Shown piece after piece: positions 6,875-28,961 of a DNA stretch of 33,125 bases. The number at the start of each line of letters is the position of its first letter. Position 1 is the stretch's first letter. The notes beneath the pieces were generated by a model that ran no database searches, was not told the origin of the DNA, and worked only from the letters and a program-made list of their open reading frames with translations. Origin of the DNA: Erysipelotrichaceae bacterium OttesenSCG-928-M19 (GTDB lineage Bacteria; Bacillota_I; Bacilli_A; JAJDGJ01); the NCBI GenBank assembly GCA_030265585.1, contig JAJDGJ010000012.1, forward strand, positions 1 to 33,125, in the 5' to 3' direction. The position numbers were made by a program, and so were the translations under genes.

Positions 6875-8188
6875 TTAATATGTTTTATTAAATCTTAAGA
6901 TAACACCATTTTTTACATTGCCAAATTCAATCTCGCCTTGTAAACTACTTGCAAGATATTTAATAGTAAACAACCCTGTCCCTAAACCTTCTTTACTATC
7001 TGAAATTCGATAGAATAGCTTAAACACATTATCTAATTGTTGTTGTGTTAATTGTTGAGCATCATTATAAAAACTTAGAATAAGTTTATTACCTTCTGCA
7101 TAACAAGCTATTTCAACCTCAGCATTCTCTTTTGCATAACTGACAATATTTGACATAGCATTGTGAATTAGTTGCTTATACTGTAATTTGTGATCATAAA
7201 TGAATAGTTTTTCATCAACATTAAAATCAACAAACAAATTCTTTTCTTTAAAGTTAAGTTTATAAGAATCATAAATATTAAATAATAACTCAATTAAATC
7301 AAACTTCTCTTTTTCTATTTTTACATTATCACTTTGAAAAACAACACGAGAGATGTCATTTATTTCTTCAATTGTTAAATCAACTTTATTATCTATCTCT
7401 TGTTTATTAACAACATCATCTAACAGCAAATACTTTATTGTCACCAACGGTGCTTTTAAATTATGAGTTAGTGATGCCACTAAACGATTCTGATATGATA
7501 ATCTTTCATTTTGATATTGTAACTGGCTTTCTAAGTTAGTATATTTATAACCTGTCTCTTTTATTAGTACATCAAGATCATGACTAAACTCGGCAATATT
7601 TCTGTTAAGAGCACTATATTCATCAACAGTGCCACGGGCTTGTATTTCATCTAGTTTAAATTCACTTAATTTATTAATATTATTTTTCAATTCTCTTAGT
7701 GGTTGCAGAAACTTAAATAAGAGGATTGCTAATAAAACAGTGATTAGACAGACAATTACAAAAATTGCAAATGATATTTTTTGAACATTAGCATCAAATA
7801 CTTCCTGTGGTAATACATTATACATTAACCACCAGACTTCATATTTCTCGTCCTCTACACTAAGAGTATATTTTTCCTCATATGTTATCGCACTCTTGTT
7901 AACATTCATATCTTTAATTGAGGCATATACTGTTTTACCATCACTTATTTTTCTAATATTTATTTCAATACTATACTCTTCAAGTAAATTATCTATTTTA
8001 GTATAATCACCAGCTAAAAACTCAGTTGTTATTGCATCTTTTATTTGTGCTGCCTCAACTGTTTTATTGTTTGTATAGTCCTTGGGAATATTATTTATTT
8101 CAACTGCTATTAAAATACTTGCTACTATTGTAAATAATAAGCCAACAGCTAAAATAATTCTCCAAATTTTAGTTATTTTATTATTCAT
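6875..8188 (-). CDS. Sensor histidine kinase of module 1
   Basis: The 437-residue kinase has a helix near residues 9-29, an outside sensor domain of about 105 residues (30-133), a second helix near 137-158 and a linker like a HAMP domain. The dimerisation and phosphoacceptor domain has H242 in LTHNLKAP, and a HATPase_c domain follows, with an N-box near QLIHNAMSNIVSYA, an F-box (VFKLFYR) and a G2 box (GLGTGL). The residue after the histidine is Asn, not the usual Glu or Asp. The residue at H+4 is Ala, where phosphatase-competent HisKA kinases keep Thr or Asn. The G1 box lacks its glycines (NDAQQL). The start codon lies inside the regulator's last codons (8-base overlap), so translation is coupled. 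Its partner is the regulator just upstream; the signal is unknown. Confidence 0.9.
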   Translation of the reverse strand: MNNKITKIWRIILAVGLLFTIVASILIAVEINNIPKDYTNNKTVEAAQIKDAITTEFLAGDYTKIDNLLEEYSIEINIRKISDGKTVYASIKDMNVNKSAITYEEKYTLSVEDEKYEVWWLMYNVLPQEVFDANVQKISFAIFVIVCLITVLLAILLFKFLQPLRELKNNINKLSEFKLDEIQARGTVDEYSALNRNIAEFSHDLDVLIKETGYKYTNLESQLQYQNERLSYQNRLVASLTHNLKAPLVTIKYLLLDDVVNKQEIDNKVDLTIEEINDISRVVFQSDNVKIEKEKFDLIELLFNIYDSYKLNFKEKNLFVDFNVDEKLFIYDHKLQYKQLIHNAMSNIVSYAKENAEVEIACYAEGNKLILSFYNDAQQLTQQQLDNVFKLFYRISDSKEGLGTGLFTIKYLASSLQGEIEFGNVKNGVILRFNKTY

Positions 8189-8864
8189 GCCAACGATATC
8201 CTACGCTACGTATCGAGACAATTGCTGATATATCAAGTTTCTTTCTTAAGTTCTTAATATGTGAATCAATATTTCTTAAATCAATATCAGCAGACTCTAA
8301 TGATGTATGCCAAATATTTTCATAAATATCTCTTCGCGATAAAAGAACATTTTTGTTTTCTAGAAACAACTTTAATAAATCAAATTCTAATTTTGTAAGA
8401 CTCACCATTTCACCATTCTTTGTTGTAACGCGATCTTTAACATTTAAAGTTATTTTCTCTAATTCACTTGATAACTGTGATACAAAATGTCTATGATGAT
8501 TTTCATTTATCAATCTTTTCAAACGTGCAACTAAAATCTCAAATGACGTTTCTTTTCTTATATAATCATCAGCTCCTGTTTTTAATGCTTGCAATTCATC
8601 AAACTGATCTTTTGAACAGGTGAAAAGAGCTACTTTTATAGCAGGATTATGTTTTTTAACCATTTCAACAACTTGATTCCCATTTAACTTTTCAAGATTT
8701 AAATCAGTTAACACCAAATCATAGTCCTTTTCCTTTATCATATTTAAGGCTGCAATGCTGTCATCGACAATATCTACTTCGAAATCAGCTTTTTCTAAAT
8801 ATTTTTTTATTAAATCCGCAAATTGAAAATCATCTTCTATATACAACATTCTCGCATTTTTCAT
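8181..8864 (-). CDS. OmpR/PhoB-type response regulator of module 1
   Basis: The 227-residue protein has a receiver domain (1-115) with the acidic pair E10/D11/D12, phosphoacceptor D54 in LVLTDLNL, T82 and K104. A winged-helix DNA-binding domain follows (about 130-227), ending SVGYRWHE. The cis-proline normally next to the conserved lysine is replaced by Glu (YIRKETS). An upstream ATG at 8906 would add 14 residues. I prefer 8864 because it has GGGGTG at 7 bases, while 8906 has no ribosome site and lies only about 12 bases from the predicted transcription start. It is first in the module 1 operon and likely controls that operon, the giant gene, or both. Confidence 0.92.
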   Translation of the reverse strand: MKNARMLYIEDDFQFADLIKKYLEKADFEVDIVDDSIAALNMIKEKDYDLVLTDLNLEKLNGNQVVEMVKKHNPAIKVALFTCSKDQFDELQALKTGADDYIRKETSFEILVARLKRLINENHHRHFVSQLSSELEKITLNVKDRVTTKNGEMVSLTKLEFDLLKLFLENKNVLLSRRDIYENIWHTSLESADIDLRNIDSHIKNLRKKLDISAIVSIRSVGYRWHE

Positions 8865-8924
8865 AAACAAACACCCCATTATTCTCAATTTCTTCATATT
8901 ATTCACACACAGCTCTTATTATAA

Positions 8925-12030: not shown

Positions 12031-12432
12031 TTAATTCAAAGTAGCAATATCTGTGACCAAAGATTGACTATCACCAATTGATATGGAAATAACTTCATCA
12101 ATAAAAATAACAATCTGTTTATATTTTGTCACGAAATCTTTACTAGCAATCACATCAACATCATACATAATAAAAGCTGTTTGATTTAGTTGCTCTAAAT
12201 ATTCACGCTCATCTGCTTGCTTTGTTAAATAGGAAGCAAATACTGTTTTAAATAATTCACTTTCAACATCTAGTTTTTCATTTTCGTCTTTTACTTTAAT
12301 ATCGGCAAGAAATTCAACCCTAGAACCAACATAGATTCCATTGGCAGTATTGATGATTATCTTATTGCCTTTTAATTGTTCAATTTTTACTAACTGGGAT
12401 ATTGCATAAATTAAATCTGTTTTTGTTTGCAT
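12031..12432 (-). CDS. Small cytosolic protein of unknown function
   Basis: The 133-residue protein has no signal peptide or membrane helix. It starts MQTKTDLIYAISQLVKIEQL, has a short GNKIIINTANGIYVGSRVEF stretch that looks like beta strands, a central charged helix, and a hydrophobic strand-rich end. I do not recognise the family. An ATG at 12456 would give eight more residues, but it lies at or upstream of the predicted transcription start and has no ribosome site, so 12432 is chosen. It is a single-gene unit divergent from the metal exporter gene, with about 105 bases between the two starts; a functional link is possible but unsupported. Confidence 0.7.
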   Translation of the reverse strand: MQTKTDLIYAISQLVKIEQLKGNKIIINTANGIYVGSRVEFLADIKVKDENEKLDVESELFKTVFASYLTKQADEREYLEQLNQTAFIMYDVDVIASKDFVTKYKQIVIFIDEVISISIGDSQSLVTDIATLN

Positions 12433-12458
12433 TATATCAACTTCTTTCTTTGCCATTT

Positions 12459-12487
12459 ATTCTAACATCAATAAGTTTTTGATACAA
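12459..12487 (-). promoter_or_regulatory. Promoter of the 133-residue protein gene
   Basis: TTGTAT (12482-12487) and TAGAAT (12459-12464) on the minus strand are 17 bases apart. The predicted start site near 12452 excludes the first ATG and supports translation from 12432. Confidence 0.55.
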
Positions 12488-12492
12488 ATAAA

Positions 12493-12520
12493 TTGTAAAT
12501 ATAAGTGACAATGTTATAAT
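12493..12520 (+). promoter_or_regulatory. Promoter of the ferritin-like/VIT gene
   Basis: TTGTAA (12493-12498) and TATAAT (12515-12520) are 16 bases apart, followed at once by the ribosome site GATGAGGTG. The two divergent promoters here lie back to back with five bases between their -35 boxes. Confidence 0.65.
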
Positions 12521-12537
12521 AAAGATGAGGTGATTTG

Positions 12538-13419
12538 ATGAAACCACAACTAACAAAAAATGATATTAAAGCTTTATTAGCTTTTCAAAAGGCAGAAATA
12601 ACTGACCATACTATTTATCTTAGACTTGCGAAAAGAGAAAAAGATTCTAAGAATAAAAAGATTTTAGAAAAGATTGCTAGTGATGAAAAAGACCACTATA
12701 ATATTTGGAAAAACTACACTAATGTTGAAGTTAAACCAAATAAACTTAAAATACTTTGGTATACCTTAACTAGTTATTTAATGGGTTATACTTTTACAAT
12801 TAAAACGATGGAGAAAAATGAATATACAGGTTCAAAAGCTATGCGTGATATTAAGATGAATATCCCAGAAATAAATGCAATTATCAAACAAGAGGATGAA
12901 CATGAAGAATTACTAATTGAAATGTTAGATGAGGAACGCTTACAATATATTGGCTCAATTGTTTTAGGCTTAAATGATGCTTTAGTAGAGTTAACAGGAA
13001 CAATTGCTGGACTTACTTTAGCTTTTGCGAATACAAGCATGATCGCTCTTTCTGGTATCATTACCGGCATTTCAGCAACCTTATCAATGGCTGCTTCTAA
13101 CTATTTAGCTGAGCGTGCTAACAATAATCCTAAAGCTTTAAAATCTAGTCTTTATACCGGAGTAGCATATTTAATCACAGTAGCACTTTTAGTTATACCT
13201 TATTTAGCCTTACCTAATCAAATGTATTTTCAGGCTTTAGCTATTATGATTACTGTTGTAATTCTTGTGATTTTCTTTTTTAATTACTATGTTTCAATCA
13301 CTAAAAATTTACCTTTTAAAAAACAATTTTTAGAGATGGCCATCATTAGTTTATCAGTAGCCGCATTATCGTTTGTCATTGGAATATGTGCCAAAATGTT
13401 TTTAGGTATTGATGTTTAA
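12538..13419 (+). CDS. Ferritin-like/VIT fusion metal exporter (MbfA type)
   Basis: The 293-residue protein joins an N-terminal ferritin-like di-metal domain (about 5-135) to a C-terminal VIT/CCC1 membrane domain. Candidate metal ligands in the first part are in the helices with AFQKAEITDH, SDEKDHYNIW and KQEDEHEELLIEML, which keep the E...ExxH pattern. The membrane part opens with GLNDALVELTGTIAGL, a hallmark of VIT proteins, and has about five helices. The same domain order is seen in MbfA, an inner-membrane iron exporter whose ferritin-like part senses or loads iron. Export of Fe2+ or Mn2+ is inferred. Start 12538 (ATG) is preferred to TTG at 12535, given AGGTG 5 bases upstream. No Fur-type box was recognised. 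Confidence 0.88.
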   Translation: MKPQLTKNDIKALLAFQKAEITDHTIYLRLAKREKDSKNKKILEKIASDEKDHYNIWKNYTNVEVKPNKLKILWYTLTSYLMGYTFTIKTMEKNEYTGSKAMRDIKMNIPEINAIIKQEDEHEELLIEMLDEERLQYIGSIVLGLNDALVELTGTIAGLTLAFANTSMIALSGIITGISATLSMAASNYLAERANNNPKALKSSLYTGVAYLITVALLVIPYLALPNQMYFQALAIMITVVILVIFFFNYYVSITKNLPFKKQFLEMAIISLSVAALSFVIGICAKMFLGIDV

Positions 13420-13477
13420 ATAACTATCTAACTAAAGTAATAATATTAACAACTAACAAATTTTAGCTAAAATTAAA

Positions 13478-13525
13478 AAGCTTTGAGTATAATATGATTT
13501 ATTCATATTAAAAAACTTAAAGCTT
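13478..13525. terminator. Bidirectional terminator with a two-part stem
   Basis: The outer stem AAGCTTTGAG (13478-13487) pairs with CTTAAAGCTT (13516-13525), with one G-U pair. The inner stem AATATGA (13491-13497) pairs with TCATATT (13503-13509). T-rich sequence follows on both strands. It ends the exporter gene and the mazF gene, which converge here. Confidence 0.7.
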
Positions 13526-13555
13526 CTTTATTAATTATAACTACAATACACCCTA

Positions 13556-13879
13556 TTATTGATCAAAAATTGCTTGTGCTAAATCTAAGATGTTTAATAA
13601 ATCTTCTTTTCTTAAGGATTCTTTATACACAAATTTTCTTGCTTTAGGATCAATAGATTTAAGATGATCTAACATTACTTTTCCAGTTATTACATAATCT
13701 GTTAACTCATAATATAAGGGATAGACTCTTTTTGTATTACTAATCGGTGCAACAATTATTAAATGTGAATGTTGATATACTAGCTCATTGCTTAGACAAA
13801 GGCATGGTCTAAAACCTTGTTGTTCATGACCCTTAGTCGGATCTAATGAAACCATTATTATATCACCTTGTTTTACCAA
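13556..13879 (-). CDS. mazF: MazF/PemK-family mRNA interferase toxin
   Basis: The 107-residue protein has the family's full-length pattern: GDIIMVSLDPTKGHEQQGFRP at the start, LIIVAPIS in the middle, and LDHLKSIDPKAR later. R24 aligns with the catalytic Arg of MazF. S47 stands where most members have Thr; the hydroxyl is kept. Members cut single-stranded mRNA at short sequences; the target here cannot be read. The gene overlaps the antitoxin gene by 7 bases and ends at a shared terminator, as expected for a translationally coupled toxin-antitoxin pair. Confidence 0.93.
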   Translation of the reverse strand: MVKQGDIIMVSLDPTKGHEQQGFRPCLCLSNELVYQHSHLIIVAPISNTKRVYPLYYELTDYVITGKVMLDHLKSIDPKARKFVYKESLRKEDLLNILDLAQAIFDQ

Positions 13880-14136
13880 ATTTCTTTACCTACAGGCTCA
13901 ATATCATCAAAATCAACTTTATCTATTATTTCATCAGCAACATAACCAGCAAATAATTCAGTGATATTTTTCCTATCTCTTTGTTTGGTTTGTTTTTGTT
14001 TTTTTTCAATAATTATTTTTTTATCAACAACCTCAATTGATACTTCATCATTAACATTTAGCTCAAGTTGCTCTAAAATAGTTTTATTAAGCCTTATTCC
14101 TTGGCTATTACCCATTTTTTTAATTGCTCCATTCAT
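13873..14136 (-). CDS. mazE: MazE-like AbrB-fold antitoxin
   Basis: The 87-residue protein begins with an AbrB/MazE swapped-hairpin DNA-binding domain (GAIKKMGNSQGIRLNKTILEQL, then DEVSIEVVDKKIIIEKK). A lysine/glutamine-rich linker and an acidic C-terminal tail (about 55-87) follow; the tail would wrap the toxin. A GTG at 14145 would add three residues, but AAGGAAGTG is correctly spaced for the ATG at 14136. It is first in the operon and, with MazF, should repress its own palindrome-bearing promoter. Confidence 0.9.
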   Translation of the reverse strand: MNGAIKKMGNSQGIRLNKTILEQLELNVNDEVSIEVVDKKIIIEKKQKQTKQRDRKNITELFAGYVADEIIDKVDFDDIEPVGKEIW

Positions 14137-14162
14137 TTTAAACACTTCCTTTACTTGTCTAA

Positions 14163-14197
14163 ATTATACCATAATGTGGATACAATGTATATACATT
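14163..14197 (-). promoter_or_regulatory. mazEF promoter with palindromic operator
   Basis: On the minus strand TATACA (14186-14191) and TATAAT (14163-14168) are 17 bases apart. A perfect 14-bp palindrome, AATGTATATACATT (14184-14197), covers the -35 box. A wider inverted repeat, CATAATGT/ACATTATG, flanks the spacer. The operator overlaps the last codon of the upstream AraC-type gene by two bases. Confidence 0.75.
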
Positions 14198-15386
14198 ATG
14201 ATTGATTATTCCGATATTCTTTAGGACTTTTATCAAACTTCTCTTTAAATAAACGACTTGCATAACTTAAATCACTAAAGCCAACATAGTAAATTATTTC
14301 CGTTATTTGATAACTCGTTGTCTTTAATAAAAGGGCCATTTTTTCAAGACGCTTATCATTAATATAATCACTTAGTGATACCTTGATTTCTTCATTAAAT
14401 TTCTTAGAAAGATAATTAGGTGAAATATGTAAAGAATCAGCCATTTTTTTAAGTGTTAACTTGCGATTTAGGTTATTATTAATATAATCAAGAGCATCTC
14501 TAATTATTAAGGAATAGTGTTGATTGTTGTTTTCCTTTATCAATTCAATATAATCAACAACCATTCTCTCTCTTAAACGATAAAGCTCTAAAACATTATG
14601 TTCGTTTTGAATTTTATACATAAAATCCCAGAAAACATAATCAAGATTAAGAATATGTTTGATTTTATCTTGCGTTGTTTTTCGTAATAGAGTATTAAAG
14701 ATAATGCTTAAATTTTTTTGATGTGTTAACGAATCACTTATAATATTTAAATTAGTTGTCTCGGTTCTTAGCCTTTCATGAAGCTTTTTAGCGGCTTGTA
14801 AATCGCCATTTTTCACTTCCATTAAAAAAGCATTTTCAAGGTCATAACGATCAATTATTTGTTTGTTATGCTCATCATTTTTTTGATTATCAAAAGGGTT
14901 TTCCTTAAACTCTTTATCTATTTCAACAACATTGATACTATTACTATTATTATATTTTTTAAGACATATTTTCATCATTTCAATTACGGTATTTAGGCTT
15001 ACCTTTTGTTGTGAGATATAAAAGCCTCGAATTAAGTTAAAATCCAAATTCTGATATTCCTTCTTTTCTAGTAGATTTAAAATTTCATTTTCGCTATACT
15101 CTCTTGTTAGAAAGGGTCCTATCACCAAAAACTTACTTATTTCTTCTAATTTAATCAGAACAAAATTTAACTCAAAAACATCTTTAATAATATAGATAGT
15201 TTCAGTTTCCATTTCATTAAAAGTAACCGAAAACTCCTTATCTAAATGGTTAATTATAAAAGCAGGTAAATGATCAAACATCTTTTGTTTCCAGGATTCG
15301 ATACTATCATCATCAATGAAAACAGTCGGTAAGCCATAGATTGTATTTAGATATTCTTTAGTAAGCATTATTAATTCATTGTTCAT
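14196..15386 (-). CDS. AraC/XylS-type transcription regulator with large sensor domain
   Basis: The 396-residue protein ends with a standard double helix-turn-helix of about 98 residues, with LTLKKMADSLHISPNYLSKKF and ITEIIYYVGFSDLSYASRLF, closing PKEYR. The N-terminal 290 residues include a possible PAS-like or related sensory fold (VLIKLEEISKFLVIGPFLT) and a helical part with NGDLQAAKKLHERL. I cannot name a ligand. AGGTGATG precedes the ATG at 15386. The gene is divergent from the glycosyltransferase gene across about 100 bases that contain two direct repeats. It is therefore a likely local activator of that gene, though this is inferred only from position. Confidence 0.88.
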   Translation of the reverse strand: MNNELIMLTKEYLNTIYGLPTVFIDDDSIESWKQKMFDHLPAFIINHLDKEFSVTFNEMETETIYIIKDVFELNFVLIKLEEISKFLVIGPFLTREYSENEILNLLEKKEYQNLDFNLIRGFYISQQKVSLNTVIEMMKICLKKYNNSNSINVVEIDKEFKENPFDNQKNDEHNKQIIDRYDLENAFLMEVKNGDLQAAKKLHERLRTETTNLNIISDSLTHQKNLSIIFNTLLRKTTQDKIKHILNLDYVFWDFMYKIQNEHNVLELYRLRERMVVDYIELIKENNNQHYSLIIRDALDYINNNLNRKLTLKKMADSLHISPNYLSKKFNEEIKVSLSDYINDKRLEKMALLLKTTSYQITEIIYYVGFSDLSYASRLFKEKFDKSPKEYRNNQS

Positions 15387-15405
15387 ATTATCATCACCTT
15401 TTACA

Positions 15406-15437
15406 ATAATATTTTACCATATATCATAATATTTTAC
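15406..15437 (+). promoter_or_regulatory. Two 12-bp direct repeats, probable AraC-type site
   Basis: ATAATATTTTAC occurs exactly at 15406-15417 and 15426-15437, a 20-base period (two helical turns). The second copy ends about 37 bases before the predicted start of the glycosyltransferase transcript. That is where class II AraC activators bind over a weak -35 region. It lies between the regulator and its divergent neighbour. Confidence 0.55.
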
Positions 15438-15461
15438 TAACAATAAATTTCACTTGTGCTA

Positions 15462-15467
15462 TATAAT
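15462..15467 (+). promoter_or_regulatory. -10 box of the glycosyltransferase gene
   Basis: A consensus TATAAT is present, but no good -35 sequence stands 16-18 bases upstream (15439-15444 reads AACAAT). This is consistent with dependence on an activator. The 5' leader would be only about 14 bases. Confidence 0.45.
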
Positions 15468-15487
15468 ATCTTGTGAGGGGTGATATT

Positions 15488-17470
15488 ATGGCTGAAATAA
15501 TCTATATATTTGGACTAATTGTCGTAGCAGCTTATATAATTGCTGGTCTTGATGATTTAATTTTAGACATCATTTATGTTTTTATTCGTAAAAATTATCC
15601 AGAAGATACTTTATCACTAGATGTCTTAAATAAAGTTCCGGCCAAGATGTTAGCAATCACAGTAGCTGCTTGGCAAGAAGCTGATGTTATTGAAGATGTT
15701 ATTGAAAATATGGTTAAATCATATCATTATCCTAAAGCAATGTATCACATCTTTATTGGTGTCTATCCAAATGATGCTGAAACGATTGCCCGTGTCACTA
15801 ATTTAGAAAATAAATATTCTAATATTCATATGATTGTTAATAAAAAAGATGGGCCGACAAGTAAAGCAAATAATTTAAATAATGTTTTAAAAGAAATTAG
15901 AAAATTTGAACAACAATCCAATTGGAATTTTGCAGCCTTAACAGTTCATGATTCAGAGGATATTGTTCATCCTTATGAATTAAAACTAACAAACTTTCTT
16001 TTAGATCGTCATGATGCTTTGCAAATGCCTGTCTTTCCTTTACAAGATACACCAACTTTAAAGAATTTTTTTAAAGATATGGTTAGATTAACATATGCAG
16101 ATGAGTTTGCTCAGAATCATTATCAAACTTTAGTTTTAAGGGATGTTTTAAATGCTGTAGTTCCCTCTGCTGGAACTGGATTTGTTTTATCAAAGAAAAT
16201 ACTTGATACATTTAGTGATGATGAAATCTTCTCCGATGGAAGTTTAACTGAAGATTATAAACTTTCACTTACTTTAGCTGAGAATGGCTTTCATATTCAT
16301 TATGCTTTAGCTAGTGTTAAACGTATCAATAAAAATGGTGATGAAGTTGATGACTACATTGCAACCAGAAGTATGTTTCCTAGTACTTTTAAAACGGCAA
16401 TTAAACAAAAAACTAGATGGGTCTATGGTATATCAATGCAATCAGCTAATACTTATGACATTATTTTTAAAGACCATGAGGGTTCTATTGTTGAGAGATT
16501 AAGTGTTCTTAAAGATATCAAAGTTAAAATCTCTAATCTTTTATCTCTACCAGCTTATTTATGTTTTATCTACTTTATTTTACACTTAATCTTTGATATT
16601 CCAGAAATGTATCCTTATCAAAGTCTCTCATTTTATCTTTGTATTGTCTTAACTTTAATGGCTATTGAAAGACAAATTGTTCGAGGTTACTCACTTTATA
16701 AAATCTATGGTTGGGCCTATGTAGTTACTGGAATTCTAACTCCACCATTCATTCCCATTAGAATTATTGTTGGAAATATTATTAATTTTTGTGCTACTTT
16801 CAACTCATGGAAACGTTATTTCCTAAGAAATAAGAAGACTAAGCATGCTCAGAAAAAACCAAAGTTGAAATGGGATAAAACTGAACATGAATTTCCTAAT
16901 AAGCATGACTTAATTGATTTTCAAAGAGATATTCTCGATATTTTAATTATTCAAAACTACCTAGATCTTGACCTTGCAAAAAAGATTTTAGAGGAAAGTA
17001 TTGCAACTAGTGTTGATGTCGCCCAAATACTCTTAGATGGTTACTATATTAGTGAGCATCAGCTCTTAAAGGCGATTGCCTTTGTTAATAATAAAATCTA
17101 TATTAGAAACCTTAGAAAAATTATTTATGAAGATTTACGTCATGAATTTGATCTTAATTTTTTAAAAGACAATATCGTCTTACCACTAAGAAAACTCGAT
17201 GACGGTTATCTCTATGCAATTTGTTTAGAAAGTGTCAATAAGGTTGGTAAAATTTTAAAACATGAAACTAATCAAAACACCTACTATGTTTTTGCAACCA
17301 AGGATGAAATTTTAAGTACCTTAGAAAAAGAGAAGCTTGAAACTGATACCTATAGTTATTTTCATGAGTTATTTATTGCTGGACAAATTAGTTGGGAACA
17401 AGAGTTACTAGCAGATTTATATCAAAGTAGAAAAGATAATATTCTTGAATATATGGGTTACAGTAGTTAA
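15488..17470 (+). CDS. NfrB-like processive family 2 glycosyltransferase with MshEN-like end
   Basis: The 660-residue protein has one N-terminal membrane segment, a family 2 glycosyltransferase domain (about 45-340), several membrane helices (about 340-445), and a cytosolic C-terminal domain (about 470-655). Catalytic marks are HDSED with D155, TED at 254-256 and Q307-R310-W311 (QxxRW), the set found in processive beta-glycan synthases. The last part (ILIIQNYLDLDLAKKI, then QILLDGYYISEHQLLKAIAF) resembles the paired MshEN repeats that bind cyclic di-GMP, but lacks the usual RLG motif. The order is that of NfrB, the c-di-GMP-activated synthase needed for phage N4 adsorption in E. coli. The product may be a secreted polysaccharide. 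ATG 15488 is preferred to GTG 15473 because GAGGGGTG falls just before it. Confidence 0.85.
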   Translation: MAEIIYIFGLIVVAAYIIAGLDDLILDIIYVFIRKNYPEDTLSLDVLNKVPAKMLAITVAAWQEADVIEDVIENMVKSYHYPKAMYHIFIGVYPNDAETIARVTNLENKYSNIHMIVNKKDGPTSKANNLNNVLKEIRKFEQQSNWNFAALTVHDSEDIVHPYELKLTNFLLDRHDALQMPVFPLQDTPTLKNFFKDMVRLTYADEFAQNHYQTLVLRDVLNAVVPSAGTGFVLSKKILDTFSDDEIFSDGSLTEDYKLSLTLAENGFHIHYALASVKRINKNGDEVDDYIATRSMFPSTFKTAIKQKTRWVYGISMQSANTYDIIFKDHEGSIVERLSVLKDIKVKISNLLSLPAYLCFIYFILHLIFDIPEMYPYQSLSFYLCIVLTLMAIERQIVRGYSLYKIYGWAYVVTGILTPPFIPIRIIVGNIINFCATFNSWKRYFLRNKKTKHAQKKPKLKWDKTEHEFPNKHDLIDFQRDILDILIIQNYLDLDLAKKILEESIATSVDVAQILLDGYYISEHQLLKAIAFVNNKIYIRNLRKIIYEDLRHEFDLNFLKDNIVLPLRKLDDGYLYAICLESVNKVGKILKHETNQNTYYVFATKDEILSTLEKEKLETDTYSYFHELFIAGQISWEQELLADLYQSRKDNILEYMGYSS

Positions 17471-17474
17471 GCAT

Positions 17475-17498
17475 AAAAGGACTTAAAAAAGTCCTTTT
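17475..17498. terminator. Strong bidirectional terminator
   Basis: AAAAGGACTT-N4-AAGTCCTTTT is a perfect 10-bp stem with T runs on both strands. It separates the plus-strand glycosyltransferase from the minus-strand sortase, which ends at 17499. Confidence 0.92.
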
Positions 17499-18074
17499 TT
17501 AATTTGTTAATTTGTCTGCATAAATAATAAATCTTCGATCAGGAAGTTCATTAGTAAAGGGATAACAAGTTATTAAAACCAATTGATTTTTCTTTAAAGC
17601 TGTCTGCCACACTTTACTAGCACTATTTTCATTAACTATAAACACTTTAGTAATTTGATATTTATTTACTTTTTTTAAGTCTTTTAAATATACTTCAATA
17701 ACCTTATCCTTTATTTGCCTTATATCTTTTTGATCAAAGAATACTAAATCCTTAAACAATGTTTCACGATGACCTGTTAAAATAGTTTGTCCTTTTTCAT
17801 TTGGTAATACTGAGTGTTCCATTAAACCAACACCAAGAGCTAGAGCATTTTTCGATGATCCTTTAACAATAGGACTCTTCTTTAAAACACCAGCTATTTT
17901 TATATAACCAAGCATGCTAACACTATCTTTCTTTATCTTTTTAGCGTCTTTTAATGTAGCTTTATTTAATTGAATAATGTTTACACTATTATTATCTAAT
18001 AATAAGATATTTACTAAAATCAAACTCATCAACAACAAGGCAAGTTTTTTGTGAATAATATTAAACTTAAACAT
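17499..18074 (-). CDS. Class D-like sortase of module 2
   Basis: The 191-residue protein has an N-terminal membrane anchor (about 10-27) and a sortase catalytic domain. The triad is visible: H102 in ILTGHRET, C170 in LVLITCYPF, and R180 or R181 in LPDRRFII. The TCYPF context is typical of class D sortases, which cut LPXTG-like signals and join proteins to the cell wall. It is the last gene of the module 2 cluster, starting 2 bases after the LPKTS protein's stop (TAA-TA-ATG), so the two are translationally coupled. Likely substrates are the VPKTG adhesin and possibly the LPKTS protein. Whether it also forms polymers cannot be judged. Confidence 0.9.
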   Translation of the reverse strand: MFKFNIIHKKLALLLMSLILVNILLLDNNSVNIIQLNKATLKDAKKIKKDSVSMLGYIKIAGVLKKSPIVKGSSKNALALGVGLMEHSVLPNEKGQTILTGHRETLFKDLVFFDQKDIRQIKDKVIEVYLKDLKKVNKYQITKVFIVNENSASKVWQTALKKNQLVLITCYPFTNELPDRRFIIYADKLTN

Positions 18075-18076
18075 TA

Positions 18077-20761
18077 TTACTTAAACTCAAAGCTGCTAAT
18101 AAAATAATCCAGACTAGTTTTTGGTAGCGCAATTGGTTTATTCTTAACAACAATTTTTTGTTTGTTTAACTTATATATTTTCTTTCCTAAATGATAACCT
18201 TGCGGTGCTTTTAGTTCCTTTAAATAAAAATTATTATCAGTAACATAAATCTTTTTGCTTTCTTGAGATGATTGCCATTCGGCAACCTGCTTATTTTCTA
18301 AGTTATCATATAAAGCAAAAACAGCTCCTGAAACAACAGTATCTTCAGCACTAGACATTTTAATTATTTCAATACATGGATTACTTACTTTAGCAATGAT
18401 TGGTTTATCAACACCTGGTATTTCAACCTTTGATTTGCCTTCTGCCTCACCACTTGCATAAGCAATATTTTCTACCTCATTAACATCAACAAGTAACTTA
18501 ACCTTAAAAGTAATTAATACATATTCTTCTTGTTTTAGATCACCAATATCAACCATTAAATGATTATTATCCCATACTACATTATCATTGTCTTGTTCAT
18601 CAGTTACTTTCATAAATGATTTTTTCGCTTCTTGAACAGCTCCAATTTTAATAGGCGTAACTAATGTTGTATTACTTTGATACTCTAAATACTCTTTTAA
18701 TTTATCATTCAATTTAACCGCTAACCATTTACCAGCATCCTTGTCATTACTGACCTTAATTGTATAATCAATAAGGTCTCCTTTTTCATATAACCTTGTT
18801 TCATTTACTTTACTAATTAATGGTTTAGGAAGTAATGGTGTCTTTACCTCATCTTCTAATGGTTGATAGTTATCACTGTTTACTAACACTTTGTTTTTAA
18901 CTAGCAATTGTTCACTATCTTGTGGTATTTTTATTACTTTTACTTTAAATTTAATGATTCTTTTCTCATTTGCATTTAATGAGGTAAATTCACTTTTTAA
19001 AATATCAATATTATTATCTTTAGACCAACTAGCCTGCTCATCACTAAGCTGTTGATTATCAATTGTCGTTGTATTAGCAACATAACTTAAATAATCAGGT
19101 AAGCGATCTTCTAATTTAATATTTCTCCATACTGCTGCCTTTTCATTATTACCTAATTCAATTGTATATTCAAAAATATCATTAACATTTAAGCCTTCTT
19201 CAGTAGTAGTTTTCTTAAGATAAGGATCCGGTAAAACTTCAGCTTCAATATTTACTTCTTGTGTTTTATTCTCCACTAAACCATTATTTGTTGTCGTAAA
19301 GGCAGTTGCTGTATTAGGAAAACGATATTTACCATATTCATTAGCTACTAGATACTTTGCTAAATCGTCAAGTTCAATATCTTCTTTTAGATAAACAGGT
19401 ATCTTAAAAATGAAATTAGTTCCATAGAAAGCACTATTTTTTAAGCTACTATCTTTAGCCATAATGGTTACTTCATTATTTTCAGCAATGTCAATATCAA
19501 AATAGTCATTAACTAACTTATTAGCACTTATTGAATAAATAGCAATTTCATCCTCTAGTATCTTAAATTCTTGATTAATTTTATCTTTTATATAATAACC
19601 CTGCCAATATTGTTCTGCATTTATCAAATATGGTGTTGTTTGAACAAGATGATAGTTGAATTTTTGTTGTTTTTCAGTTTCTGAAAGTAAAGCATTTACC
19701 TTTTTATAGTTATCCTTACTCTGATGTGAATCAATAGCTTTAGTCACCTCATTAATTTCTGTTGAAGTAATATCACCTGCAGTACTTAAATACTTCTCTA
19801 AAGCGAAGGGTTGAGGTTCTAAAGGGCTTTTTGAATCATAATTAAAGACAATTAAACTTTTAGTTGTATTTTTTGAATTTATTAAACGATTATTACGATA
19901 AGTATAAGTCAAATTAGTTGTATCGTATTCATGACCCCAGGATGATTTAGAAAAATCTGCTCGCGTGCTGCTACCCTGATAACCAATATTATCTTTTTCA
20001 TAAATATGTTGATAGGTGCTATCATTGCTATTTGATGTTGCACTATAAAGAATACTATCAGAACCCACCCACTGTTTACCAACAATATATGCTTTATTAA
20101 TCGTTATCGATTGTAAAGCATCAATATCTGAATAAGTCCAATAACCTTTAACCTTAACTGGTGTTTCACTACCCGCTTCAAAAAACGAGTAACGAATCGA
20201 CATTGAATTAGCATTTAAACCATGAACATCAAAATTTTTTGTTAACCAGATTCCATTTTGTTTAACATTTAAACTATCTAATGTTGATAAACTCCAATTA
20301 TAAATTGTCATTTTCATATCAATAATCTTCCCATTATAAAAACCAATATTATTATAACGGGCACCAATTTTTCCTTTATAACTAGCTGGACAGTTTTTTA
20401 CATTAAACTCAATACGATCAACATAATTTACTGGAGTAGCTGAATAATCCTTTAAAAAAGCACTAAAAAGTGATTTACCATCATGAGAATTACCCCCTAT
20501 TATTTTTTTAGCAACACAAGTACTATCATTACCAAAAGAACTAAACGAGAACTCACCTAGACTCTTTTTTCCACCCTTTATTGGCGTAAAAGTATATTCA
20601 GTTGTTCCTTTAGAGGCACTAGTAATCATACCCGAAATACTTTTAGCACTCTTTTGATTACTCCATGATGATGGAAAATTAGATGCTGCTAACACTTGAG
20701 CCTGCTTAGAAAACAATAACACCATCAGCATTACTATAAAGACAATTATTTTTTTACTCAT
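18077..20761 (-). CDS. Pilin-like secreted protein with DUF11 and SpaA domains, ending LPKTS
   Basis: The 894-residue protein has a signal peptide (1-25, ending QVLAA), a large N-terminal region (26-500), and two DUF11-type domains (about 510-640 and 647-780) opening YLKKTTTEEGLNVNDIFEYT and ISKVNETRLYEKGDLIDYT. A SpaA/Cna-B-type domain follows (about 792-875). In it Lys of IEIIKMS, Glu of YLKELKAPQGY and Asn of VVKNKP fit an internal isopeptide bond. A sorting-like LPKTS lies at 879-883, but only 11 residues follow (LDYFISSFEFK). There is no hydrophobic helix or basic tail. The +1 frame at that point reads WIILLAALSLSNNV before a stop, so an old frameshift is possible. AAGGAAGG precedes the ATG. 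Its sortase follows immediately. Confidence 0.85.
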   Translation of the reverse strand: MSKKIIVFIVMLMVLLFSKQAQVLAASNFPSSWSNQKSAKSISGMITSASKGTTEYTFTPIKGGKKSLGEFSFSSFGNDSTCVAKKIIGGNSHDGKSLFSAFLKDYSATPVNYVDRIEFNVKNCPASYKGKIGARYNNIGFYNGKIIDMKMTIYNWSLSTLDSLNVKQNGIWLTKNFDVHGLNANSMSIRYSFFEAGSETPVKVKGYWTYSDIDALQSITINKAYIVGKQWVGSDSILYSATSNSNDSTYQHIYEKDNIGYQGSSTRADFSKSSWGHEYDTTNLTYTYRNNRLINSKNTTKSLIVFNYDSKSPLEPQPFALEKYLSTAGDITSTEINEVTKAIDSHQSKDNYKKVNALLSETEKQQKFNYHLVQTTPYLINAEQYWQGYYIKDKINQEFKILEDEIAIYSISANKLVNDYFDIDIAENNEVTIMAKDSSLKNSAFYGTNFIFKIPVYLKEDIELDDLAKYLVANEYGKYRFPNTATAFTTTNNGLVENKTQEVNIEAEVLPDPYLKKTTTEEGLNVNDIFEYTIELGNNEKAAVWRNIKLEDRLPDYLSYVANTTTIDNQQLSDEQASWSKDNNIDILKSEFTSLNANEKRIIKFKVKVIKIPQDSEQLLVKNKVLVNSDNYQPLEDEVKTPLLPKPLISKVNETRLYEKGDLIDYTIKVSNDKDAGKWLAVKLNDKLKEYLEYQSNTTLVTPIKIGAVQEAKKSFMKVTDEQDNDNVVWDNNHLMVDIGDLKQEEYVLITFKVKLLVDVNEVENIAYASGEAEGKSKVEIPGVDKPIIAKVSNPCIEIIKMSSAEDTVVSGAVFALYDNLENKQVAEWQSSQESKKIYVTDNNFYLKELKAPQGYHLGKKIYKLNKQKIVVKNKPIALPKTSLDYFISSFEFK

Positions 20762-20790
20762 TATTCTACCTTCCTTTTCAAGACATAAAA

Positions 20791-20816
20791 AAACATTGCT
20801 TATTATTACAATGTTT
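20791..20816 (-). terminator. Hairpin with T run before the LPKTS gene
   Basis: AAACATTG-N10-CAATGTTT forms an 8-bp stem, followed on the minus strand by a run of seven T. It is the second of two hairpins between the adhesin and the LPKTS gene. Confidence 0.65.
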
Positions 20817-20860
20817 AATTATTATTTAATTAGATATCTTATTTTCCTAAACAAATCACA

Positions 20861-20883
20861 AAAGAGGCATTTAATGCCTCTTT
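20861..20883 (-). terminator. Terminator directly after the giant adhesin gene
   Basis: AAAGAGGCAT-TTA-ATGCCTCTTT is a perfect 10-bp stem four bases after the stop at 20888. On the minus strand it runs into TTTTGTG. It should reduce transcription of the LPKTS and sortase genes relative to the adhesin. Confidence 0.85.
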
Positions 20884-20887
20884 AATA

Positions 20888-23800
20888 CTATTCAAATAAT
20901 CTTTTTCTATTAACTCCAATTACCACGCTACCTAAAATCATCAGAAGGCTTGCATAAGTTAAAGCATCGTTTCCTGTTTTTGGTACAGGTGTCGTACTTA
21001 GAGCACTCATTTTATTAATTGTCGTACTCTTTGGTTTTTCGATTAGACTACGTGGTTTAGTTGGATCGTTTGGATCAATATCTGATGTTGTATAAACAAT
21101 GTCAGTATTGCTTCCCTTAGCATTAGCCTGATTAATTAAGACACCAGGTGACTTAGTATCCTTATTAATTACACTAGGCATAGTTACAGTAAAAGTAACT
21201 GTCACTAGCTCATTATTGGCAACATCACCAACGTTAAGTCCTTGTTTAATATCACCAGTATAAGTATTAGTTCCCTTAGTTGCTGTTGCTTCACCAATTA
21301 GCGCATTTTTAAACTCAGCGTCATTTAATGGGTCCTTAATAATTACATCACGAGCTGTAACCTTACCAATATTTCTAAAATGTAATGTGTAAGTTAACTT
21401 TTCGTTTGGACTAAAGACAGCATCACCATCAGTATCCACAACTATTTTTGTTCCAGTCAATAATGGATTTTCTTTCGGGTAAACAGTTGGTGTTGGCTCA
21501 TCATTTTCATCACGCAATTTAGTTGGATCATTTGGATCAATATCACTACTTGTAAAGACCGTTGGCGTATTTTCAGCTTTTGCTTGTGCTTGATTAACAA
21601 CTAAGTTTGGAGTCGCACCAGAATTAGTCATTTTAGCAGGCATTGTAACTTCAAAGACAACCGTTACAGTTTGATTAACCGCCACATCCTCAACATTAAG
21701 TCCAGTTCTAATATCACCAGAATATGTAGCACCATCTTTAGTTGCAACAGCCGTAGAAATAGTTGCTCCAACAAATTCATCATCGCTCAAGTCATCTTTA
21801 ATAATAACTTTACGAGCTGGTATTTCACCAATATTTGTATAATGAAGTGTATAAGTAATAGTTTCACCATTTTCAATATAGCCATCATCATTTGCATCTT
21901 CAAGTAACTTAGTCCCAATTAATTTAGCATTTCTAACTGGTACTTCTGTTGGCGTTGCTGGCGCAGTTGGATCATTTGGCATTGTTGGATCTTCTGGATC
22001 AACATCTGCTGTTGTTAGAACATCTTCATGATTGTTACTAATAATTGTTGCTTGATTGCTTACTATTTTATCAACAATATTAATTGGATTTTTCATTGTA
22101 ACTTTAAACTCAATACTGATTAGTCCATCAACAGCTAAATCACCCATATTATAACCAGCTACTAAATCGACATTATCAGCTAATAAAGTTTCATTTTTAG
22201 TAATCGTTGCTTTAGAAATTGTTGCTCCACTAAACTCATCATCATCTAATAAATCAATAATGTTAACACTCTCAGCTGTTAATTGACCACTATTTCTAAT
22301 ATGAATTACATAATCTAATTCTTCACCATTTTCAGCACTACCATCACCATTACAATCTGTTACTACCTTAGTAGCAGTTAAAATAGGATTACCCTTATCA
22401 ATCGTTGTTGGTGTTGGTTCATCACCTTCTTCATCTAATGATGTTGTTGGATCATCTGGATCAACATTTGATGTTGTTGGCACTTCTTCAGTATTTTCAC
22501 CCTTTGCTGTTGCTTGGTTGACAATTAAATCAGTTGCATCTTCAACATCTTTAGTAATAGTTGCTAGTTCAACAGTAAATGTTACTTCTACAACTTCATT
22601 AACAGCAATATCTCCAACATTAATTCCTGCTTGAAGATCTCCTGTAATTGTTTCACTACCTTTTATAACAGTTGCTTCTGAGATTGTTGCATCACTAAAT
22701 TCATCATCATCTAATAAGTCTTTGATAATAACATCCCTAGCTGCCAAATCACCTATATTTGTATAGTAAATTGTATATGTTAATACTTCATTACTTTCGG
22801 CAATATCATTACCATTAGCATCACTTACTATCTTTGTTCCCACTAATTTTGGATTCTTAACAGGAATTGTTGTTGGTTTTTCTAAGTCACCACCATCTTT
22901 TGGTGTGCTTTCATCATTTTCATCAACATCTGATGTAGTAACAATACTATCGTGATTACTTGCGTCTATTGTTGCTTGGTTTTCAATTATCTTATCAGCA
23001 ATTGTTATTGGATCAGCCGCTTCCATTACTATTGTAATCTTAATTGTACTAGCAGCTTCAATATCACCAATTGTATAACCATCTTTAATTGCAATATCAC
23101 TTGCTACTTCAACATCATCTTTATAAACAGTAATTGATTTAATAGTACTATCAGTTAATTCAGTATCATTTAATAAATCAGTTATAACAACATCTTTTGT
23201 AGCTACTTGGCCTATATTCTTAACATAAATATTATATGTGAACTCTTCACCATTCTCAACAATACCATCACCACTAGCATCAGCTACTACTTTAGTAGCA
23301 GTTAATGATGGATTACCTTTATCAATTGTTGTTGGTGTTGGTTCATCACCTTCTTCATCTAATGATGTTGTTGGATCTTCTGGATCAACATTTGATGTTG
23401 TTGGCACTTCTTCAGTATTTTCACCTTTAGCTGTTGCTTGGTTAACAATTAAATCAGTTGCATCTTCTACATCTTTTGTAATCGTTGCTAGTTCAACAGT
23501 AAATGTTACTTCTACTACTTCATTAACAGCAATATCGCCAACATTAATTCCTGCTTGAAGATCTCCTGTAATTGTTTCACTACCTTTTATAACAGTTGCT
23601 TCTGAAATAGTTGCATCATTAAACTCATCATCATCTAATAAGTCTTTGATAATAACATCCCTAGCTGCCAAATCACCTATATTTGTATAGTAAATTGTAT
23701 ACGTTAAAACTTCATTACTTTCTGCAATGTCATCACCACTAGCATCACTTACTATCTTTGTTCCTACTAATTTTGGATTCTGAACAGGAATTGTTGTTGG

Positions 23801-26800
23801 TTTTTCTAAGTCACCACCATCTTTTGGTGTGCTTTCATCATTTTCATCAACATCTGATGTAGTAACAATACTATCGTGATTACTTGCGTCTATTGTTGCT
23901 TGGTTTTCAATTATCTTATCAGCAATTGTTATTGGATCAGCCGCTTCCATCACTATTGTAATCTTAATTGTACTAGCAGCTGCCATATCACCAATTGTAT
24001 AACCATCTTTAATTGCAATATCACTTGCTACTTCAACATCATCTTTATAAACAGTAATTGATTTAATAGTACTATCAGTTAATTCAGTATCATTTAATAA
24101 ATCAGTTATAACAACATTTTTTGCTGTCCCTTGACCTATATTCTTAACATAAATATTATAAGTAAAGCCTTCACCATTCTCAACAATACCATCACCACTA
24201 GCATCAGCTACTACCTTTGTTGCTGTTAAGATTGGAATAATTGAGGTAATCGTAACTTCTTCACTATCATCCTCTACTGTTTCTTCAATAGGATCTTCCC
24301 CAGTTACACTAGCAATATTAACCATAGCGCCTTCTTTACCTTCATCAACCACTACCTCAAATGAAAGTTTTACAGTTTCTAATCCTTTAAGTGTTCCAAC
24401 ATTTACTGAAATATTTTGTCCACTAACATTACTATCATCCAGTTTACTTGTTGTGCCATCAGCATTAATTAATTCCAATGTTCCTGCTACATATGTAAGA
24501 CCTTCTGGAATAGTATCAGTAATAGTAACATCATCAGCAAATGAATGTTCTGCAGTATTTGATATCACTAATTTATATAAAGCAGTTTCACCTGGCTCTA
24601 TTGTTTGAGTATCAATACTTGTTGTCTCATCTTTTGTATTGAAGACATCTTTTTCAATTGTTAAAACAGCAGGTTCTATTACTCCTAAGTTAACATATGA
24701 TTGAATATGAGTTGCTGAAACCATATCAGTAATCAATGGCATTTCATATGGTGCTGCCTTAGCAGTTAGAACATCATTACCTTCCACATCGCTTTGACTT
24801 ACTTTATTAGTAAGTTCTATAGCTCCACCATCTACTTCTGTCTTAGTAAGATTATATGTATTATCATCAAGCTTATCTTTAATACCAAAACCAACTACAT
24901 ATTGATTACTTCCTTCTAAAGCAGGTAGGGCATTAAATTGATATTTACCACTAGCATCAGTTAACACAGTTGAATTACCACTACCATCAATTAATGCTTC
25001 ACCTAGTAAGTTCTCTTCTACTTTTACTAGATTACCACCACTATCTTTAATATATAGTGTTACTGGTATTCCTGCTAGTTTTGTTTCACTACTTTCAATT
25101 AAACCATTATAGTTTTTATCATACCACGCAATTCCTTCTAAAACACGATTAACAACTGCTGTTTTTTGCGTATTTGAGATAACCTTTGAATTAGCATCAC
25201 TATTACCATACGCTCTATTTATATAGAAATCTCCAGCTTTATTACCATTAGGTAAAACACTTACCTTAACTATTTCACTTTTTGCATCTTCAAGAACTGG
25301 TTTAGTAAAGAAGATAGCTTTAGCAGCTACATCTAAAGTACCACCAGTATATTCTGTCCAACCATTATTTCCAGCCTCAACATCACTAACAATAACATTT
25401 GGATCACTATCTGGATCAATAGTTTGCGTTGTATAATACAATTTAGTATCACTACTATCTGCTTCCATACCTGTTATTGTATAGCTACCATTAATATTAG
25501 AGTTCAGATATCCATTATATGGTAGTACATCAAAACCAGTTATATTAACACGATCTTCACCAGATTGATTATACATTTCTAAGCTATAAGTAAAGGCATC
25601 AGTTGTTGACATCTCTATTAATGGTGTATCTACTGATTTATAAATACCCCATTGTGATTTCTTGATAACGTTGAAATCATATGTAGCTGTTCTTAATGGT
25701 TCCACACTTAAACAACTCGGAGAAGAAATAACTACTTTATTAACTAAAGCAGCAATTCCTGCCTTATCAAAAGCAAGAGTTAATTGATTAAATGAAGTAT
25801 CATAAGTTATTTTCTGTAACTTAGCTTCACTAATACCTTCAATTTTCCAAGTTAAAGTTGTTGTTCCATCAGCATTACTAATTACATTCGGTTCCATGAC
25901 TTCACTACCATACTTAGCAGTTCCAGCTTCATACTCTACACCTTTTGGCAACGTATCAGTAATAGTAACTTCCTCATCAATTAAAGGAACATAAGCTTCA
26001 ATAACCGGAGTAATTGTCCATTTTGCAATTTCCCCACCATCATAGTTTTTCTTATCAGAAACTTTTGACACTTTAACTAAAATAGGTTGAATGTTCAGTG
26101 TCTCCCCATAACTTTTAGGTGGTGTATGATTAGCTAGAATATCACCTTTTGTGTTATATTCTGTTGGCATATAATTTTTTGTTCCATCCCATGAACCTAC
26201 CTCAGATATTATATCATTACTCTTATTCCAAGTTACTCTCATACCACTAAGTGTAATGTGTGGTGTCGTATTTGTCTGTGTTCCAAAATCTCCAACAATA
26301 ATTCTTGGGACATAAAAAGCTAAACTGTCTGGTAAAAACTGTACACTTCCCTCACATATTCCATAAACTGCTGAAATTTCTCCACTGATTTCTGCTTCTT
26401 GAGGGGTATCGTACCATTTATAGCTATCAACCGTTTTAGTATTCAAATTTTCAAGTGAATAATTCTTTTCAGCCGCTACACCATATTTTATTTGCATGAT
26501 TGGTTTCTCGCCATTCATATTCACGGGGCACACTGCAGTTACACTTCTAGATGAATCAAATTTACTTTCATTTGGGTTCCATTTTTGGATAGTTTCAACC
26601 ATATCATAAGGAGTGCCATCAACTTGGTTAAAACTTCTGACATTTACTTTCTGCCCTTTTGCTGCAACAGCATTTCCTGTTGCTATAGCAGTTTTCCCAA
26701 TATCATCTCCCAAATTTTCATATCCATCATTCGTATAATAACCACTATGAGAGCTAGCTGATCCTTTGGGATACAAAGTTTTTGACCACTTTAGATTTGT

Positions 26801-28150: not shown

Positions 28151-28259
28151 AGTTAACATACTCCTTCTTTATTTATATCATAAATAGATTATCACATCAG
28201 ATTGTTAAGTTCATTGTCTTATTAATGGTATTTAATGAAGTATTGTGTCTTTTATGATT

Positions 28260-28961
28260 TTATGAATTAAAAAACAAATAAATTATCTTTTTAACAGCAT
28301 CTTGTAGCTTTTTATACTTAAAAAGCCAATAAGTTAATGGAAGTAGTCCGACAACTGTAACAACTAAAATAATCAAGAAATTAGTTTCTAAGTTATTCTT
28401 AACTTCATAACTATTATCTTGCTCTTGCCATTTTACATCTTTAAGAGTTACTTCTTTTAATTTATCTTTAATAACTTGTTCATCTATATTGGCATTATTA
28501 CTATTATTACCATTAACAAGATTATTAATTATCTTCACATTTACATTTTTCCCTGTGTTAACTTTAACAATCGTTGTATCAGGAATATTAGAATATGAAG
28601 TAATGGTTACGCTAGTATCTTTAACAGTTAATAAATAATTGTTTAATTGTTCATTACAATCGACGACACATTTTGAAGCATAAGGTACTATCTTAATTGC
28701 TAAGGGTTTACTAGTCTCTTTATCAATTGCTTTAGCTTGAGCTAACTCAATTACTTCACGATCACTTACTTGTCTATTATTAGGCATAATAAAATCAGTA
28801 GCTTCAATTACAATACCGTTGTTTTCAACTACTTCTTTTTCTAAAAAGATTATTTCTTTAGTTTTGTCATACTCATATAAGCCATAGTCAATTACTTCTT
28901 GGCCATTAACGCCAATACTAAAACTAAGACCAATAATAAGACAACTAATTACTCTTTTCAT
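28260..28961 (-). CDS. Single-pass membrane accessory protein of module 2
   Basis: The 233-residue protein has a signal peptide (1-20, MKRVISCLIIGLSFSIGVNG), an outside domain (21-190), one transmembrane helix near 194-214 (FLIILVVTVVGLLPLTYWLF) and a basic tail of about 18 residues inside. The outside domain contains a close cysteine pair (SKCVVDCNE) and an Asn-rich stretch (NLVNGNNSNNAN). I know no family for it. Its ATG lies inside the kinase's last codons (17-base overlap), so it is translated with the kinase. In module 1 the LRR protein holds the same place and topology, and also carries an outside cysteine pair. I infer a co-sensor or kinase-modulating protein. Confidence 0.85.
   Translation of the reverse strand: MKRVISCLIIGLSFSIGVNGQEVIDYGLYEYDKTKEIIFLEKEVVENNGIVIEATDFIMPNNRQVSDREVIELAQAKAIDKETSKPLAIKIVPYASKCVVDCNEQLNNYLLTVKDTSVTITSYSNIPDTTIVKVNTGKNVNVKIINNLVNGNNSNNANIDEQVIKDKLKEVTLKDVKWQEQDNSYEVKNNLETNFLIILVVTVVGLLPLTYWLFKYKKLQDAVKKIIYLFFNS

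Follow-up and report, generated by a model that had tools for sequence, protein, structure and literature searches.

Glycans made by NfrB-type enzymes are phage receptors, as in Escherichia coli for phage N4, and that c-di-GMP controls them has become known only recently, through work on the same species. In the available text of the two reports on the E. coli system, NfrB is argued to use UDP-ManNAc made by WecB (PMC8669469, PMC8669472), and DxD, TED and QxxRW are given as its catalytic signatures (PMC8669469). The c-di-GMP sensor is of the MshEN type, whose consensus, as quoted in the accessible part of its description, consists of two half-motifs RLGxx(L/V/I)(L/V/I)xxG(L/V/I)(L/V/I)xxxxLxxxLxxQ (PMC5013675). 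In the portion of the mutational work that is available, the E. coli substitution G491L abolished N4 killing and G519S did so partly, while most other single MshEN substitutions were without effect on N4 infection (PMC8669472). A conserved MshEN domain is reported for 1,705 of 1,841 NfrB homologues, the other 136 not being so counted, and rare Gram-positive homologues, Eggerthella lenta among them, are mentioned in the same partly available source (PMC8669469). Neither a Gram-positive NfrB nor an NfrB without a conserved MshEN domain is new by itself, both being already published there.

We analysed a stretch of 33,125 nucleotides from Erysipelotrichaceae bacterium OttesenSCG-928-M19, referred to below as the window. 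An earlier note, made from the letters alone, had described one of its genes as encoding an NfrB-like glycan synthase in a Gram-positive-type genome, with an MshEN part lacking RLG. These points stood, and no GGDEF protein was found in the genomes of the family. The further idea of the note, a wall or capsule glycan under AraC control, is at this stage a conjecture. The enzyme resembles E. coli NfrB (NF008411; PMC8669469, PMC8669472) in its GT2 domain with DxD, TED and QxxRW, its membrane helices, its C-terminal MshEN-type domain and the presence of WecB in the genome. It differs in that G491 is replaced by Leu and G519 by Ala and the binding residues are lost, in that no nfrA lies beside the gene and no GGDEF protein was found in the family, and in that its GT domain is only ~34% identical and its C-terminal domain 77 residues shorter (190 versus 267). 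With the E. lenta homologue and those not credited with a conserved MshEN domain it shares, by their description in the accessible text only, the lack of an outer membrane or of a conserved sensor (PMC8669469).

The reading that we favour, with modest confidence, is synthesis of a ManNAc-type glycan that no longer depends on c-di-GMP. The enzyme, an NfrB-like GT2 synthase that would be embedded in the membrane and work processively, would take UDP-ManNAc, presumably supplied by the WecB encoded elsewhere in the genome. It would extrude its product, a putative ManNAc-type surface polymer, through the one membrane that surrounds a Gram-positive-type cell, for which reason an NfrA pore would be unneeded. 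The MshEN domain would keep its fold and have lost c-di-GMP binding, so that the enzyme would no longer be gated by this messenger; its output would then probably be set by transcription, perhaps through a divergent AraC-type gene.

The synthase gene and its surroundings

The gene and the elements next to it are as follows.

15488–17470, + strand: NfrB-like membrane glycosyltransferase of 660 amino acids, comprising a GT2 domain, transmembrane segments and an apparently decayed MshEN domain
14196–15386, − strand: divergent AraC-type regulator, akin to YSIRK-adjacent surface-antigen regulators (PF12833, 1.5e-18; TIGR04094, 1.2e-28, below cut-off)
17499–18074, − strand: class-D-like sortase, which marks a Gram-positive surface (PF04203, 8.9e-20; NF058671, 7.1e-26, below cut-off)
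15406–15417 and 15426–15437, no strand assigned: exact 12-bp direct repeat ATAATATTTTAC in the intergenic region, a candidate AraC-type operator
17475–17498, + strand: terminator-like hairpin 3′ of the synthase gene (terminator scan)

The synthase frame is open from the ATG at 15488 to the stop at 17470, and by eye GAGGGG is found 7 bases upstream of this ATG. An alternative start, GTG at 15473, overlaps this ribosome-binding site, which makes the start of the earlier note, 15488, preferable. The hairpin at 17475–17498, together with the opposite orientation of the gene downstream, suggests that the synthase mRNA is probably a single-gene transcript; four terminator-like sites were counted in 12400–21000, and shuffled sequence gave a mean of 2.6 (sd 1.4). 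As had been claimed, neither an NfrA-like export gene nor a cyclase lies nearby, the immediate neighbours being the AraC-type and sortase genes. The sortase (by Pfam) and, by eye, a surface protein with an LPxTG-like end bear out the Gram-positive type of the genome.

Several other features of the region were recorded. A MazE/MazF-type toxin-antitoxin pair (13556–14145, − strand; PF02452, 1.4e-20; PF04014, 3.4e-8) adjoins the AraC-type gene, and at 12535–13419 on the + strand a rubrerythrin-like stretch (6.7e-5) precedes a VIT1-type membrane domain (3.5e-13) in what is probably a fused metal transporter. The surface protein at 20888–28159 (− strand) has 2423 residues, eight DUF11 stretches, some of them near-identical by eye, and the LPxTG-like end PKTGN; its neighbour at 18077–20761 carries DUF11 and SpaA domains. 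Two response regulator/histidine kinase pairs are found by eye near the surface-protein genes (6875–8906 and 28945–30967, − strand), one of the kinases also by Pfam. Scans with Rfam at gathering thresholds, for tRNA genes, and with PADLOC on four proteins gave no matches.

Control of the synthase by the AraC-type regulator is possible but unproven. The two genes are separated by a divergent space of 101 bp in which the copies of the repeat lie 20 bp apart, and only 3 of 2000 dinucleotide-shuffled versions of this space contain an exact direct repeat of 12 bases. With up to one mismatch allowed, the repeat word itself occurs in the window no more often than chance would give (3 times versus 2.2 expected), so that its close pairing alone is unusual, and because the DNA is AT-rich the evidence for an operator is weak. 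By eye, a TATAAT lies beyond the second copy, at 15462–15467, and its −35 is poor, a pattern typical of activated promoters; a promoter scan did not show this pair. It is quite possible that the regulator acts on the sortase and surface-protein genes and not on the synthase, an arrangement that is compatible with the favoured reading of the enzyme. Its best NCBIfam match, TIGR04094, describes a regulator beside surface antigens, and surface-protein genes occupy much of the window; the divergent placement 101 bp from the synthase and the exact direct repeat speak against this assignment.

Catalytic part, relatives and probable donor sugar

The catalytic features of the synthase were located by Pfam and by an alignment of the window synthase with 11 other rows.

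15650–16429, + strand: GT2 catalytic domain, residues 55–314 (Pfam PF13641, 6.3e-45)
15947–15961, + strand: HDSED, the DxD site, residues 154–158 (HD.ED in 12 of 12 aligned rows)
16247–16255, + strand: TED motif, residues 254–256 (identical in 12 of 12 rows)
16406–16420, + strand: QxxRW motif, here QKTRW, residues 307–311 (pattern in 12 of 12 rows)

Among Pfam models only those of GT2 score above cut-off. NCBIfam models of the NfrB type together span residues 2–617: NF011305 (E=7.4e-114) and NF012033 (residues 12–617, E=1.4e-99) match below their curated cut-offs, as does the NfrB model NF008411 (residues 10–612, E=1.8e-87; 294.5 bits against a cut-off of 1170). These matches and the intact motifs uphold the identification as an NfrB-like glycosyltransferase. 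Hydropathy places one membrane segment at the N-terminus (residues 1–33) and three between the GT domain and the C-terminal domain (350–372, 380–398 and 410–428). The sole PDB matches of the whole protein by phmmer were to ion channels, over the membrane part only, and this likeness was rejected; a full-length single-sequence structure prediction reached pLDDT 36 and was set aside.

Relatives of the synthase are few. Of 395 genomes sampled from the class, 11 have a match at E ≤ 0.001, and in all but the window's own genome it is confined to the GT domain. At E ≤ 1e-15 the phylum sample yields two of 392 genomes (its own and G525, a class relative) and the family of G525 two of 145 (G525 and a second class relative, G573), these samples overlapping. 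No synthase match was obtained in G003, a 98%-complete genome of the same genus. Phage records contained no relatives, nor did viral contigs with either the protein or the alignment as query, and a scan of genome contigs returned one, a Campylobacteraceae protein without an MshEN domain. In an unrooted tree of NfrB-type rows only, built without outgroups and thus silent on other families, the window synthase, G525 and G573 cluster together, apart from nine rows of proteobacterial and campylobacterial origin (support 100/100). Their GT domains are 47–48% identical to each other and 31–35% identical to those of five other homologues compared, and the three have in common an insert of ~6 and one of 7 residues, both absent in the nine other rows. 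On these grounds the gene looks like a rare, patchy Gram-positive branch and not a recent import from the sampled proteobacteria.

As assembled, the G573 synthase is frameshifted, split into two overlapping frames (locus L023, 4325–6324), which points to decay of the gene or else to a mistake in the assembly. By eye, no NfrA-like gene was recognised beside the synthase in G525 or G573 either. A similar small protein is encoded within a few kb of both synthases (G525, locus L024, 11844–12359; G573, L023, 8865–9443), and the window showed no counterpart, again by eye. An empty-site comparison with G003 proved impossible: its DUF1846 gene (84% identical) has other neighbours, save a distantly similar regulator (29%) and kinase (23%), and its matches to the AraC and sortase genes are distant (34% or less). 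Both response regulators of the window match one G003 regulator at ~29–30%.

The donor sugar is suggested by the company that the synthase keeps. Non-hydrolysing WecB (TIGR00236) is present in all three genomes with the synthase, its own, G525 and G573; among the three family genomes without it, PF02350 was not found in G001 or G002, and G003 has a NeuC-type match only. This pattern covers six genomes, four of them from one family. The WecB of the window's genome (contig C34; TIGR00236, 2.7e-148) sits, by eye, between D-Ala-D-Ala-ligase-like and GAPDH-like genes; in G003 an acyltransferase gene occupies this position. The contig with WecB also carries teichoic-acid-type genes, for two PF04464 proteins and an ABC ATPase, and WecB could for that reason serve them instead. 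TagA/WecG is another user of UDP-ManNAc. It was found in none of the six genomes, an absence that for the window's genome, like that of GGDEF, rests partly on relatives, one alone of the same genus. Among plasmid loci, for which 8 of 27 records were taken for diversity and the unannotated Caballeronia locus was left out of the neighbour counts, wecB lies within the shown stretch in six of seven, and six of seven have a named NfrA-type gene.

A glycosyltransferase with another donor or acceptor, making a different homopolymer or decorating a lipid or wall polymer, is in our view unlikely. The limited GT-domain identity to the characterised E. coli NfrB, the failure to pass any NfrB-group cut-off and the two inserts peculiar to the clade would fit such an enzyme; against it, the enzyme retains QxxRW, a signature of processivity, as well as the WDKT-H-F stretch that E. 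coli NfrB also has, and WecB co-occurs. The earlier note had also raised an unrelated lipid-glycosylation family, and here the profile scores place the enzyme with NfrB while leaving room for another product chemistry. Polymerisation of a ManNAc-type glycan is the more probable assignment.

The C-terminal domain and its c-di-GMP site

Three features define the C-terminal part of the synthase.

16883–17467, + strand: MshEN-type domain, residues 466–660 (profile match, fold match)
16928–16936, + strand: Asp-Ile-Leu, residues 481–483, at the RLG position of half-motif 1 (alignment; Pro-Leu-Gly 489–491 in E. coli NfrB)
17015–17023, + strand: Asp-Val-Ala, residues 510–512, in half-motif 2 (alignment; Arg-Leu-Gly 517–519 in E. 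coli NfrB)

Pfam finds no MshEN match in the synthase, and the earlier note had allowed that the fold might prove absent. Its presence is indicated by both sequence profiles and structure comparison. A profile of 10 homologues' C-termini (8 proteobacterial NfrB proteins and the class relatives G525 and G573) scores the domain at 42.8 bits, where the best of 200 shuffled sequences reaches 6.0; with a profile of the 8 proteobacterial C-termini alone the values are 19.8 and 5.5 bits. Used as a query by itself, the domain is recognised by the equivalent region of NF012033 (E=4.4e-5) and by the region of TIGR02538 that covers the PilB N-terminus (E=0.0012). A single-sequence AlphaFold2 model of residues 466–660 has a mean pLDDT of 57.7, rising to 77–89 over the helical bundle at model residues 11–60. 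The top nine structural rows for this model are the N-domains of PilB, PilF (GSPIIB) and MshE (Z 8.2–9.1), unrelated fumarase/aspartase bundles ranking next at Z 7.4 and lower; Foldseek likewise ranks PilB N-termini first, with no match at E ≤ 0.001. Because Z values of 8–9 are modest for a helical bundle, the fold match counts only jointly with the sequence profile. Most likely, the domain has a real but decayed MshEN fold. The likeness to MshE, PilF and PilB lies in the predicted fold of the helical MshEN_N portion, residues ~477–535; in contrast to these proteins, RLG is absent in both half-motifs and the domain is fused to a glycosyltransferase, theirs being fused to an ATPase.

We scored 12 key positions, the R, L, G, L, L and Q of each half-motif, in the window synthase and in the 10 homologues with an MshEN domain, leaving out the Campylobacteraceae protein that is without one. 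The window synthase keeps 2 of 12, its letters at the six positions being DIL/ALS in half-motif 1 and DVA/LIV in half-motif 2. Ten residues are kept in the E. coli, Variovorax and B. pyrrocinia proteins, nine in four other homologues, seven in G525 and G573 and six in Caballeronia. Both RLG glycines are kept in 10 of 10 homologues with the domain, the class relatives included; the window synthase has Leu 483 and Ala 512, which align with E. coli G491 and G519, the two glycines whose substitution impaired N4 killing. Since most single E. coli substitutions at the other conserved residues were neutral, the count of lost residues overstates the meaning of each loss. NF053729, a c-di-GMP-motif model with a cut-off of 38 bits, scores E. 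coli NfrB at 66.4, G573 at 42.4 and G525 at 35.2, and is not listed for the window synthase, whether as the whole protein or as the domain alone. As judged from its sequence, the domain keeps the fold and is without the c-di-GMP-binding residues, and by the tested motif the enzyme is NfrB-like as a synthase and not a c-di-GMP-activated NfrB.

It is also doubtful, a shade more so than a change of donor or acceptor, that a rewired MshEN domain still gates the synthase, through another ligand such as c-di-AMP or through a protein partner. The domain has been retained, with its helical bundle and a predicted beta part, despite the lost c-di-GMP residues, and its best structural match is a Xanthomonas PilB N-terminus in complex with PilZ. 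On the other side, the adjacent genes offered no recognisable partner, c-di-AMP is not a ligand of MshE according to the accessible text of PMC5013675, and a decaying domain can persist without a role. The bolder evolutionary form of this idea, that the lineage lost the messenger, kept the gate and turned MshEN to another nucleotide or a protein partner, we regard as unlikely; if true, the clade would span, in natural steps, the way from control by c-di-GMP, in G525, to a new input, in the window.

Cyclases in the lineage and the role of the MshEN gate

Loss of c-di-GMP gating, as in the favoured reading, agrees with what the genomes hold. GGDEF was not found in the window's own assembly, estimated at 62% complete, nor in the three other family genomes (96–98% complete), and these same four genomes are the whole of the order as sampled. 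GGDEF occurs in 73 of the 145 genomes that represent the family of G525; G525, with two matches, is the sole positive among seven genomes checked. G573 (66% complete) is not among the 73, yet its half-motif 2 still has RLG. In this sample, accordingly, the loss of residues and that of the messenger do not go closely together, and a loss of RLG tracking the loss of GGDEF is only suggested. That the synthase still responds to c-di-GMP, made by cyclases encoded in the estimated 38% of the genome that is missing, is very improbable: GGDEF is common enough in the family of G525, of the same class, but only 2 of 12 key residues are left, both RLG glycines are gone and the three relatives of 96–98% completeness have no GGDEF match.

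As far as the literature was accessible, we met no description of an NfrB whose c-di-GMP site has decayed and whose lineage has no detected cyclases. The clade unites a member that keeps much of the sensor and bears GGDEF proteins with a member that has lost the sensor residues and in whose family GGDEF was not found, and so offers a natural test of the role of the MshEN gate. The same clade tests whether NfrB-type synthases can work without it.
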